Of a stretch of 64,000 nucleotides of DNA, positions 44,048-48,590 are shown piece after piece. The stretch is from contig JAIRYN010000026.1 of assembly GCA_031267575.1 (NCBI GenBank), forward strand, positions 1 to 64,000, read 5' to 3'. Positions within the stretch are counted from its first letter, which is position 1. Each line of letters begins with the position of its first letter. The notes under the pieces were generated by a model. That model was not told where the DNA came from and did not search any database. It saw only the letters and a program-made list of their open reading frames with translations. The position numbers and the translations under genes were made by a program. The stretch comes from Synergistaceae bacterium. GTDB lineage: Bacteria > Synergistota > Synergistia > Synergistales > Aminobacteriaceae.

Positions 44048-44173
44048 TTGTTAGGCATGCTTTGGATTGTTAGGCATGCTTTAGATTGTTAGGCATGCTT
44101 TGGATTGTTAGGCATGCTTTGGATTGTTAGGCATGCTTTAGATTGTTAGGCATGCTTTAGATTGTTAGGCATG
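44048..44173. repeat. 19-bp tandem repeat with palindromic core, about 6.6 copies
   Basis: The unit is TTGTTAGGCATGCTTTRGA, six full copies plus a partial one, differing only at one purine. The core GGCATGCT nearly forms a palindrome (GCATGC). A further gttaggcatgcc lies at 44205-44216, next to the terminator. There is no spacer diversity, so this is not a CRISPR array. Confidence 0.9.
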
Positions 44174-44220
44174 TTCGGGGGTTTCACCTTATAGCTCGCT
44201 CCTACGTTAGGCATGCCAAA

Positions 44221-44361: not shown

Positions 44362-44490
44362 AACGATGCGAGATGCGGGGCGGAACACGACCGGGATATC
44401 AATCGGGATATCAAGGCGGCTATAAATATTCTCAGAGTGGGGGCATCCACTCTTAAAAGAGAAGATGTCAGACCGGTTTCAGTCGGCTGT
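44362..44490 (+). pseudogene. C-terminal remnant of an IS605-type TnpB
   Basis: Read from 44365 the frame gives CGAEHDRDINRDIKAAINIL..., i.e. the TnpB zinc-ribbon end and DRDxNxAxN signature, with the signature itself tandemly duplicated (12 bp, cgggatatcaat / cgggatatcaag). A few dozen codons remain before the stop; nothing upstream is recognisable as TnpB. Confidence 0.75.
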
Positions 44491-44504
44491 CTTTGTTGAT
44501 CTTA

Positions 44505-44549: not shown

Positions 44550-45737
44550 TTATTCTTCGCTTTTCTGGTTTTCCTGAGTGAGACGGGGGTCGGCGTGTTC
44601 TTCGAGTTTGCGGCCGATATCCATAAAGACGAGGCATATCAAGGAAATCCCCAACCCCGGCGGCAAGATCGTCCACCAAGCCCCGTTGGTGAAAGCCCCG
44701 AAAGTTTGAGCTTCATGGAGCATCCGGCCCCAAGAGGGCAGTCGAGGGTCTGAGAGTCCCAGAAAGGCTAGTCCCGCCTCGGCCAGGATTGCCCCTGGAA
44801 CCCCTAAGGCCATGTTGGCCAGCAATAAGGGGAGCGCTTCGGGGACCAGGTGGCGAAAAAGAATGTAATCACGTTTCGCCCCCAAGGCGCGCAATCCCTC
44901 CACCCACGGGGCGTCCCGCAAGGACAGCGTCATGGCCCGCACCGTCCGAGCCGTTCCCATCCACGAGAAAACGGAGAGAATCACCACTAGGTTCCAAAGC
45001 CCCTTGCCCCACATCCCCGCGAAGATCATCAAAATCGGCAGGGTCGGAATGGACAAAAGCACGTCCACCGAACGCATGATCAGTGTGTCGGTCAAGCCTC
45101 CCGCATAGCCCGAGAGCAACCCCAGAGAAAGACCCAGAAGCGTCGCGATCAAGGTCGCCGTAATCCCCACGATCAAGGACACTCGTATCCCTCGCAAGAA
45201 AAGCGCGGCAACATCCCGCCCCCGCTGGTCTGTGCCCAGCCACCCCCATCGCCCGCCCTCGATTTTCAAGGCCACATCTCCACTGCCCACCAGCGAGAGT
45301 GTATATTCTCCATCTGAGGGGAACAGCACCGAGGACATATCATCGAAGGGCTTCAACCCCAGGGCTTTTTTGAAAGAGATATCGCGAGCGTCCAAGTCCA
45401 GTTCTCCCGGAACATCGGTCAGCAGAAACTCGTTTGTGGGCGTCTTCCACCGGACGGTTCCCTCGTCCAGGCGCCCAGTCAGAGCCACCCGCAAAGGCGC
45501 GGCGTGGTTCCAGGCCAAGGGCGCCTCAGCTGCGCCGCCGGAGACTTGCAGAGTGAGCGTGATCGTGGGGGCGATGGAGCAGTCCAGCCATTTCGGCTTG
45601 GAATAGGGAGGCGCCTGAACACCTTCCCTCAAGCCGAAAAGTTCAGGGCCCACGATAGCCAAAAACGCCAGTAAAACGAGACATACCGTACTCCATGTAC
45701 TCCATGTACTCCGTTGACGCTTTACATGGCGCCTCAT
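44550..45737 (-). CDS. peptide ABC transporter permease (DppC/OppC type) with extra periplasmic segment
   Basis: This 395-aa inner-membrane protein starts at ATG 45737, which overlaps the upstream permease stop (ATGA); the frame extends further upstream but only as a shadow. After the first helix (about 12-33) comes an insert of roughly 130 aa (GVQAPPYSKPKW...), much longer than the usual short loop, before the standard WLGTDQRGRDV motif. The transporter core follows with EAA loop GLRALGAKRDYILFRHLVPE. Near the start WSTWST arises from a 9-bp tandem duplication. Confidence 0.9.
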   Translation of the reverse strand: MRRHVKRQRSTWSTWSTVCLVLLAFLAIVGPELFGLREGVQAPPYSKPKWLDCSIAPTITLTLQVSGGAAEAPLAWNHAAPLRVALTGRLDEGTVRWKTPTNEFLLTDVPGELDLDARDISFKKALGLKPFDDMSSVLFPSDGEYTLSLVGSGDVALKIEGGRWGWLGTDQRGRDVAALFLRGIRVSLIVGITATLIATLLGLSLGLLSGYAGGLTDTLIMRSVDVLLSIPTLPILMIFAGMWGKGLWNLVVILSVFSWMGTARTVRAMTLSLRDAPWVEGLRALGAKRDYILFRHLVPEALPLLLANMALGVPGAILAEAGLAFLGLSDPRLPSWGRMLHEAQTFGAFTNGAWWTILPPGLGISLICLVFMDIGRKLEEHADPRLTQENQKSEE

Positions 45738-46699
45738 TTCGCGCTCACCCGCCTCACTCGCGGATCGATCAAGACGTAAATTAGGTCGGCCAAAAGATTG
45801 CAACACACAGTCAAAAGCGCCAGAAGGTAAAAGGCCGCACCGGCTGAGGGATAGTCGTGGGAGTTTGTGGCCTCCAGCAAAAAGCGCCCCGCCCCGTTGA
45901 GGGAGAAAACGGTTTCCGTAATCACGGCGCCGCTGACTACGCTGGGCAGTGAGAGCAGAAAGATCGTCAGTACTGGCGGTAGGATGGAACGGAAGGCGTG
46001 GTTCCACACCACCCTACTATAAGGCAGACCCCGGGCTCGGGCTATCAAGATGTAGTCCTCGCCCAGCGCCTTCACCATCATGTTACGGATGTAAAGCGCC
46101 CATCCTCCGAAGCTCATAATCACCAGTGAAAAAAGGGGTAAAGCCAGGTGCCACAGATAGTCGAGCACCGCGGCCGGCCCTTCCGGAGGCGGAATAGAGG
46201 TCGTTCCCCGCAGGGGAAAGATCGGCCAAGCATAGGCGAAACACAAAAGCAACAAGAGCTGCACGAAAAACGAGGGAAACGAGAAGGAAACCGCGCCGCT
46301 CAGAAGCACCACTCGCTCCACCTTGGACCCCCGTTTTAAAGCGGCCTGCATACCTAGCCACAGCCCCAACAGCGCTGACAACAACAGCGCCGGAAGCAGT
46401 AGCGCCACGGTATTGGGAACTCGGTTCTTCAATTCCTCCCACACGGGCTGACCCGTCATCATGGACAAGCCGAACCGGAAAAAGAGCATCTCCTGGATGT
46501 AGACTACGAACTGTTCGGCCAAGGGCTTATTCAGGCCCCATTGAGCAGCCAGTTGCTGTTTAGCCTCAGGCGAGAAACGAGGATCCACGATGCTCGTCAA
46601 GGGGTCTCCGGGCATAACGCGGAAAAGAAAAAAATTGAGCGCCAACACCACAGCCAGAACCACCAAAGAGCCACAAACGCGTTTGGCCAAGGCGCTCAT
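45734..46699 (-). CDS. peptide ABC transporter permease (DppB/OppB type)
   Basis: This 321-aa inner-membrane protein opens with the family's FLFRVMPGDPLTSIVDPR and later has the EAA loop ARARGLPYSRVVWNHAFRSI. About six membrane helices. The start overlaps the stop of the binding-protein gene (ATGA). It partners with the DppC-type permease; ATPase genes are not in this window. Confidence 0.93.
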   Translation of the reverse strand: MSALAKRVCGSLVVLAVVLALNFFLFRVMPGDPLTSIVDPRFSPEAKQQLAAQWGLNKPLAEQFVVYIQEMLFFRFGLSMMTGQPVWEELKNRVPNTVALLLPALLLSALLGLWLGMQAALKRGSKVERVVLLSGAVSFSFPSFFVQLLLLLCFAYAWPIFPLRGTTSIPPPEGPAAVLDYLWHLALPLFSLVIMSFGGWALYIRNMMVKALGEDYILIARARGLPYSRVVWNHAFRSILPPVLTIFLLSLPSVVSGAVITETVFSLNGAGRFLLEATNSHDYPSAGAAFYLLALLTVCCNLLADLIYVLIDPRVRRVSAK

Positions 46700-48456
46700 G
46701 GGATAGCCTCTCCCTTCGGGGCGGGTTCAGGATCAGATTTAGGTTTAAACAACATATAATGCTCGTTGCGAGTCATGTGCACATATTCTCCCGTTCGGGA
46801 CTCCCGAAAGATGAAGGGTCCCGTGCCGACCAGCTCGGTCAGGATCGTGCCGTTCAGGTCCTCGTGAGGGCGGTTTGTGGGTTGCCAGGCTCGCCAGTCC
46901 GAGACCGTCTCTAGAATATGTTTGGGAAGAATCAGCATTCCTCCGATGTTGTGCAGGTGCCAGTAACTCGTGTTCGCCATAACCACCCGCACCGTCCGCC
47001 TTTCAACATCGAACTCCATCGACTCGACGTCCTTCACGTTATCATAAAAACGTGGAACATTATGCTCCTTAATGTACTGGAGAGAAAAGGTCACGTCCTC
47101 CGCGGTCAGGAGACGGCCATCTTGCCATTTTAGGCCGGGGCGCAGGGTGAAGTTCAAAACTGTCCTGCCTTGTTCTTGAGTGATATCCCAGCTTTCGGCC
47201 AGCCAGGGTAGGTCCTCAAAGGTGTAGGGGTTCGTGGAGAGCAACGTATCATAAACCGTGCCCAGTACTGTCCAATCGTAGGCGGTGGAGGACACCAGCG
47301 GGTTCAAGGTCCGTATTTCCTCCGGGATATTCCAGTAGATGGGACGCTCTCTGCCTTCCTTGGGGGTCATGGAGATAAGGGTCAACAAATTGTCCGAGTT
47401 GGAGCGGTCGGTAGTGAACACTCCCTTCCAGTCGTTACGCGTGGCCGAGATGGAGTAGCGGCTGTAGATGGGAATGACCGGAAGCAGGTCCGACAAAAGC
47501 TCCTGAGCACGGGAAGCGAGGGATCGAGCGGCAGGTTCGTCGGGGGCATAACGCAGGTCCCACAGCGCTTGATCCAGTTCGGGGTCCGCGATGCCGCTCA
47601 TGTTGTAACCTCCTTCCACGTCCATAGACGAATGGTAAAAGGAATAGAGGATGTCGGGATCGCGACTCATAGACCAAGCGTTGGTGCAGGCGTCAAAATC
47701 GCGCGCATCCACCCGAGCCAACATGGTTTGGAAGTCGATGGGCTCCGCTTCCACGGGCATTCCTATGGAGACTAGCACCTCGGCGGCCAGTTGGGCGATC
47801 TCCGCCGTGGTCGCCGCCACAGACGAGGGTGGGCAAAGAATTTTCGTGGGAGGCACGGAGCGACCGTCAGGTGCCACCAACCACCCGAATCGATTCCAAG
47901 TCCATCCGGCGTTGGCCAAGTGTTGGCGAGCCGACTCCACACCGCGTGGCAGTTTTTTTGTGAGTTCGGCGAGTTCGATAGGCTTGTAATAAGGAGAGAT
48001 GGGGGGTAGAAAGCTCGTCAGGGGTTCGCAGTATCCAGAGAACAAGTCCCGGGTCCATTCTTTACGATCTACTACTTGGGCGGCCGCCTGACGGAGCGTC
48101 ACTTGATCCCAGGGAAACTTGCGGACATTGAGGGTGATGAAAAAACCATGAAAGCTGGAGGCCAAGGACAAGTCGGCCATCCCCGATTCTCCCAGGCGTT
48201 TGATGTCCGCGGGGCGATAGAGGTCCGAGAGCACGTCCAGTTTTCCCGTTTCCATAGCTAGAAGCTGCGCGTCCATGTCCCGTGTAATCACGTAATACAG
48301 GTCCCGCATTTTTGGCCCCTCGAAGGCGAATAGATCGAAGGACGCACATGGAGAAACATCAAGAGCGTCTGACTCCGACGCGAAAGCTATTGAAAAAATC
48401 AACACAGAGAGAAAGAAAGAGAGAAAGAAAAGGAAACACGCGTATCGACGTTTCAA
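46696..48456 (-). CDS. family-5 peptide-binding protein with circularly permuted domain order
   Basis: This exported binding protein has 586 aa and a signal peptide about 1-27. TTG start at 48456, 10 nt behind AGGAGG. In DppA/OppA relatives, the LNPL...LAESW...LRxGxKWxDGxxxTAEDV...GTGPF part comes first and the ITxDxxxxxxAxxxGxxDV...VRQAxxxAVxK part second. Here the second part comes first (ITRDMDAQLLAMETGKLDVL about 58-77, TLRQAAAQVVDRKEW about 120-135, LLPVIPIYSRYSI about 315) and the first part follows (PEEIRTLNPLVSS about 373, LAESWDITQEQGRTVLNFTLRPGLKWQDG, VGTGPFIFRES about 550). Both parts are complete, so it is a permutation rather than a truncation. Confidence 0.88.
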   Translation of the reverse strand: MKRRYACFLFFLSFFLSVLIFSIAFASESDALDVSPCASFDLFAFEGPKMRDLYYVITRDMDAQLLAMETGKLDVLSDLYRPADIKRLGESGMADLSLASSFHGFFITLNVRKFPWDQVTLRQAAAQVVDRKEWTRDLFSGYCEPLTSFLPPISPYYKPIELAELTKKLPRGVESARQHLANAGWTWNRFGWLVAPDGRSVPPTKILCPPSSVAATTAEIAQLAAEVLVSIGMPVEAEPIDFQTMLARVDARDFDACTNAWSMSRDPDILYSFYHSSMDVEGGYNMSGIADPELDQALWDLRYAPDEPAARSLASRAQELLSDLLPVIPIYSRYSISATRNDWKGVFTTDRSNSDNLLTLISMTPKEGRERPIYWNIPEEIRTLNPLVSSTAYDWTVLGTVYDTLLSTNPYTFEDLPWLAESWDITQEQGRTVLNFTLRPGLKWQDGRLLTAEDVTFSLQYIKEHNVPRFYDNVKDVESMEFDVERRTVRVVMANTSYWHLHNIGGMLILPKHILETVSDWRAWQPTNRPHEDLNGTILTELVGTGPFIFRESRTGEYVHMTRNEHYMLFKPKSDPEPAPKGEAIP

Positions 48457-48590
48457 AAATCAATTGCCTCCTTGTCGTTCAGGTATCGCCACAACAACGT
48501 CGGGTAGTCCATGTAGTCCATGTAATCCATGTAATCCATGAACTGGCTGAACACCAACGCCTTCTGGCCCCTCTTTTCCCCAGCACGGCA
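48457..48590. repeat. spacer with 9-bp tandem repeats
   Basis: Four copies of tagtccatg/taatccatg lie at about 48506-48541, between gpt and the binding-protein gene. The binding-protein ribosome-binding site is at the left end. Confidence 0.6.

Follow-up and report, generated by a model that had tools for sequence, protein, structure and literature searches.

The solute-binding proteins (SBPs) of family 5 or cluster C, such as DppA, OppA, AppA, NikA and SapA, are the closest described relatives of the protein reported here. The N- and C-termini of oligopeptide-binding proteins lie near each other in the fold (PMC10924461), and in the E. coli DppABCDF importer the DppA cleft is where the periplasmic scoop of DppB docks (PMC12136057). 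A naturally circularly permuted SBP has been described before, namely TpMglB-2 (Tp0684), a glucose-binding protein of cluster B, for which the category 'Type Ic / Cluster Bc' was proposed (PMC4990184). For family 5/cluster C we found no report of a natural permutation in the open-access full-text literature; a previous reading of this DNA from the sequence alone (the sequence-only reading) had also known of none in the family, and the searches are consistent with this without amounting to proof. Thus natural permutation of an SBP as such is already known, and what would be new here, consistent with the literature searches, is a case from family 5/cluster C.

We analysed a stretch of 64,000 nucleotides of Synergistaceae DNA (the window). 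With a probability of about 0.9 in our estimate, one of its genes encodes a natural circular permutant of a DppA/OppA-type SBP, which would act as the SBP for its own dedicated ABC importer of DppBCDF type.

A family-5 protein with its portions in reversed order

The elements of the gene are as follows:

48467..48471, minus strand: GGAGG ribosome-binding-like site, 10 nt ahead of the TTG start of the SBP gene (from sequence)
46696..48456, minus strand: probable circularly permuted family-5 (cluster C) solute-binding protein, type 1 permutant, 586 aa, TTG start
48379..48456, minus strand: signal peptide, residues 1-26, by sequence inspection; a single helix of residues 2-31 in the AF2 model
47359..48339, minus strand: native C-terminal portion, now first (residues 40-366), comprising lobe 2 and the remainder of lobe 1; SBP_bac_5 profile 146-363 (profile/HMM matches)
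47347..47361, minus strand: linker at about residues 366-370 that bridges the old C- and N-termini, from alignment
46747..47346, minus strand: native N-terminal portion, now last (residues 371-570), ending just past the GTGPF...NEHYML strands; SBP_bac_5 profile 4-148 (profile/HMM matches)

A single uninterrupted frame runs from 48456 to 46696 with an in-frame stop two codons 5' of the TTG start, and the motifs quoted in the sequence-only reading are all present in the order in which it gave them. On inspection the N-terminus has a clear Sec-type signal peptide with a predicted cleavage at MKRRYACFLFFLSFFLSVLIFSIAFA-SES, by which the protein would be exported; no lipobox was seen in it.

The only Pfam family matched by the 586-aa ORF is SBP_bac_5 (PF00496), in two stretches (182.5 bits, E 1e-53). 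A six-frame search of the genome places profile positions 146-363 upstream and 4-148 downstream, each part as a single copy with no duplication of the domain. When the protein was rotated in silico (residues 371-570 followed by 40-370), it gave a single Pfam stretch over positions 4-363 of 368 with 193.1 bits (E 1e-56), and its PDB matches, which fall into two swapped pieces for the unrotated chain, became one collinear piece (e.g. AppA, 1xoc, 69-463). A canonical-order HMM likewise reads the window SBP and all 15 type-1 proteins examined as two swapped stretches (186-504, then 3-185, with the joint at 185/186), and each of 23 normal SBPs, including paralogues from the window's own genome, as one. 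The parts are hence those of a circular permutant: they are single, contiguous and complementary, the old ends are joined, and the new ends lie at one formerly internal site. This bears out the earlier claim that an intact segment of C-terminal type precedes an intact one of N-terminal type; two complete SBP_bac_5 domains, which that reading had named as a finding that would speak against it, are not what the gene contains, as each profile part occurs once.

The protein therefore shares with other family-5 SBPs nearly the whole profile (4-363), a signal peptide (by inspection) and an operon of DppB/DppC type, and differs from them in that its parts are reversed around profile position ~147, 146-363 preceding 4-148, and in that its termini lie in lobe 1. 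It is a family-5 protein by content that departs from the standard N-to-C order of the family, and is best filed as 'cluster C, permuted'. Identity with the TpMglB-2-like Cluster Bc was considered and rejected, since PF00496 alone was matched and the listed Foldseek matches all belong to family 5. The two cases have in common that a natural permutant serves as an ABC-importer SBP and is shared by many relatives, ligand binding having been kept in TpMglB-2 (PMC4990184). However, TpMglB-2 belongs to the sugar-binding class of cluster B and its permuted part bears little resemblance to normal homologues, whereas both parts align well here; the cut sites of the two are not comparable.

The new termini separate the strand pair GTGPFIFRES/GEYVHMTRNEHYML from the strand YYVITRD, and no overlap of copies is left over. 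The cut had earlier been assigned to a connection between the domains; it is instead a cut within lobe 1 (domain I) that separates neighboring strands a little past the GTGPF strand. In placing it there we used the lobe boundaries of the YejA paper and the domain limits of OppA. The joint of the old C- and N-termini measures 7-22 residues in type-1 relatives, and alignment gaps are concentrated in it, which fits a surface linker. An AF2 model of the mature protein, without the signal peptide, reached a pLDDT of 70.9 and a pTM of 0.72 (pLDDT 59 for the full-length chain with the signal peptide). In an order-dependent Foldseek comparison of the model with the PDB, family-5 SBPs make up all of the best 50 matches; the alignments span ~300-350 columns, the targets being ~480-580 residues long, a partial coverage as would be expected from such an aligner on a permuted chain. 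We infer that the chain folds as a normal two-lobe Venus-flytrap, with the old termini bridged by the short linker and the new ones opened in lobe 1.

The reversed order could in principle also arise from two half-SBPs with different partners or functions that were fused, and whose product is either cut apart after export or dimerises by exchange of parts. The flexible joint of variable length would suit such an arrangement, as would one relative (G118) in which both parts occur as separate overlapping frames. But taken together the halves make up one complete SBP_bac_5 domain, no more and no less, the rotated score exceeds the sum of the parts, and the profile cuts agree within a few positions; further, the variable joint lies where the old termini meet, like a surface linker, and there is no sign of a protease site. 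We therefore regard this alternative to a single permuted SBP as improbable.

Conservation of the permuted protein and its operon

A collection scan recovered 26 loci with homologues of 63-78% identity, all from Synergistaceae/Synergistales and mostly from MAGs. Among 188 Synergistota genomes searched, a collinear full-length orthologue is present in about 100 (102 by row count) at 41-80% identity. Each of the ten families that make up the window's order has these type-1 orthologues, and among the same genomes they are absent from the two families outside it (5 genomes). They are found in one- or two-contig assemblies (G021, G022, G030, G032, G136, G137, G182), several of them single-contig. 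Where dS could be estimated, dN/dS between the window gene and its relatives is about 0.06-0.12 and similar in both halves; judged from these comparisons, purifying selection is acting on the two halves alike.

These observations bear on the reading of the gene as a non-functional assembly artefact, or a chance fusion of two truncated SBP genes. The window's genome is a draft of 76 contigs and the copy in G118 is split, both of which could be cited in its favor. Against it, the same order recurs in the 26 loci from independent assemblies and in about 100 species (G030, G032, G136, G137 and G182 included), both halves are under purifying selection, and each domain part is found just once. A misassembly or random fusion is accordingly rejected, and we consider an artefact of any such kind scarcely credible. 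The sequence-only reading had proposed a search for homologues sharing the order and had named a misassembly joining two genes as something that would refute it; the swapped order proved common to these Synergistota genomes, single-contig ones among them.

About 80 of the 188 genomes have no full-length type-1 copy, including almost all of the genus g11. This genus (about 40 species) and its neighbor g12, which belong to the window's own family, are without the operon that the order otherwise shares, apparently through lineage-specific loss. In G118 (L088:7280-8952, plus strand) the gene occupies two overlapping frames, with the break about 30 codons past the joint of the old C- and N-termini. 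This could come from a frameshift or an error in sequencing, or the protein could be made in two parts. The gene is likewise fragmented in G178. From these split copies it follows that gene loss or sequencing error does occur. On plasmids, the best-covering records gave only two-piece matches to type 1 (24-28% identity). A Cytobacillus plasmid protein (L120) was considered as a further type-1 candidate and rejected, since the HMM reads it in canonical order.

The permease genes of the window, with the additional segment of one of them, are:

45734..46699, minus strand: DppB/OppB-type permease (PF00528 and PF19300), overlapping the SBP stop (ATGA)
44550..45737, minus strand: DppC/OppC-type permease, 395 aa from the ATG at 45737, overlapping the DppB stop
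45240..45623, minus strand: extra periplasmic segment of DppC, from TM1 to the GTDQRGRD core motif, 131 aa

The overlap of cognate permease genes downstream of the SBP, as previously proposed, is that of DppB and DppC with ATGA junctions, and it is conserved with the SBP: the order SBP-DppB-DppC is kept in all complete loci examined. Two ATPase genes then follow DppC in most loci, including those of termite-gut relatives (L006, L007, L009-L014). In the window's genome they do not; a different contig (C41:5402-7014, minus strand) carries a DppD orthologue, 78% identical to the DppD of L006, next to a gene for a DppF-like ATPase. Just downstream of the window's DppC, at the expected place of the ATPase genes, there is a short ORF (44362-44499, plus strand) ending in ...CGAEHDRDINRDIKAAINIL..., which resembles the C-terminus of a tnpB-type transposon protein (weak Pfam match, E 0.055). 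Between the operon and a FIST-like gene is a tandem 19-bp repeat, TTGTTAGGCATGCTTTRGA, in about seven copies (44048-44180). Because of this tnpB-like remnant and the repeat, a displacement of the ATPase genes by a mobile-element rearrangement is plausible. A search for clues to the ligand in the neighboring genes of the examined loci found nothing conserved beyond the operon, the other neighbors being variable.

The relocated ATPases, and neighbors that offer no hint of a ligand, would be compatible with the protein having given up its place in the importer to act instead as a sensor or as a regulator of the permease. However, the gene sits in a tight operon with both permeases, and with both ATPases too in most families and in the termite-gut relatives, while orthologous ATPases are retained elsewhere in the window's genome; such a change of role is thus very improbable, and a permuted importer SBP remains the preferred reading.

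The DppC partner departs from its counterparts as well. In every type-1 operon measured, 125-200 aa separate the first hydrophobic helix of DppC from the (G/S)TDxxGRD core motif; the corresponding distance from TM1 is 24 aa in two related canonical-SBP operons of the same phylum. The additional segment, about 100 residues in the periplasmic TM1-TM2 region, is not a feature of the usual family-5 partner, and the DppC of the E. coli system (PMC12136057), which has the same subunit composition and the delivery mechanism expected here, also lacks a large periplasmic segment and is paired with a DppA in standard order. The segment is conserved, column identity averaging 46% in nine aligned rows, and no Pfam family or solved structure matched it (best PDB E 0.44). 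Across the phylum, DppC proteins bearing it closely track the permuted SBP; in other DppC copies the match begins no earlier than about residue 150-165.

A second class of permutants opened in lobe 2

The hunt for the nearest unpermuted relative led to a protein, P0002 of genome G176, that is itself permuted, with HMM positions 325-503 first and 3-340 after them. Proteins of this kind (type 2) were located as follows:

L073:6614-8293, minus strand: P0002
L105:4974-6623: type-2 permutant
L106:5791-7623: type-2 permutant
L107:5983-7659: type-2 permutant
L108:5941-7569: type-2 permutant
L116-L119: type-2 permutants

Type 2 shares with type 1 its membership in family 5, the joining of the old ends and complete DppBCDF-type operons (SBP-permease-permease-ATPase, where examined). 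The types differ in that type 2 is opened in lobe 2, at HMM position ~335 after 'AGYeW..G+lyYPeG', in that DppC has no insert in G176, where it was measured, and in their range, type 2 occurring in Alphaproteobacteria, Haloarchaea and one Synergistota genome. In its native order P0002 gives single-piece matches (87-100% query cover, 30-43% identity) to proteins encoded on fully sequenced plasmids from Halalkalicoccus, Haladaptatus, Nitratireductor, Roseomonas, Ketogulonicigenium, Neorhizobium, Microvirga and Maritalea; against the same proteins a rotated P0002 query breaks into two pieces, and canonical SBPs give one piece. No solved structure with the type-2 order was found in the PDB. Among the operons of L105-L107, the alphaproteobacterial ones adjoin genes for M28 peptidases and hydantoinase/oxoprolinase, and the one of Halalkalicoccus adjoins a creatininase-family gene, possibly hinting at an amide or peptide-like ligand.

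In an SBP tree, for which the sequences were first rearranged into canonical order, type 1 (100/100) and type 2 (100/99) each form one group, and the two are nearest neighbors (89/90). A tree of DppB plus DppC unites both types and three canonical operons in one subfamily (100/99); a union of types 1 and 2 does not appear within it, but the test does not reject such a union (AU p 0.225). It is a tentative and rather doubtful proposal that one ancestral joined or tandem cluster C SBP gave rise to lineages opened in lobe 1 (Synergistales) and in lobe 2 (Alphaproteobacteria, Haloarchaea and the one Synergistota genome), and that in the former the permutation evolved together with an additional, new domain of DppC in the periplasm that changed the docking of the SBP.

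Proposed function, origin and wider meaning

The permuted SBP very probably works as a normal DppA-like SBP, as the sequence-only reading had thought probable: dN/dS is low in both halves, the overlapping permease genes are conserved, and the old termini are close in the fold of the family. The exported protein would capture its ligand, predicted to be a peptide or peptide-like compound, between the two lobes in the periplasm and hand it to DppB/DppC, on which it would dock, with DppDF powering the delivery. In DppC, the enlarged periplasmic portion is a probable site of contact with the re-threaded SBP. As to the origin of the permutation, the most likely course is that an ordinary SBP gene of this transporter subfamily was duplicated in tandem or fused and then trimmed at both ends.

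Family-5 SBPs are among the largest families of transporter receptors and have been assumed to be uniform in chain order; annotation pipelines label the permuted members merely 'ABC transporter substrate-binding protein', type 2 included. An order-wide permutation tied to a modified permease, together with a second permutant in other phyla, provides natural experiments on how the position of the termini relates to folding, flytrap motion and docking on DppBC. Such proteins also offer ready starting points for biosensors built on permuted binding proteins.
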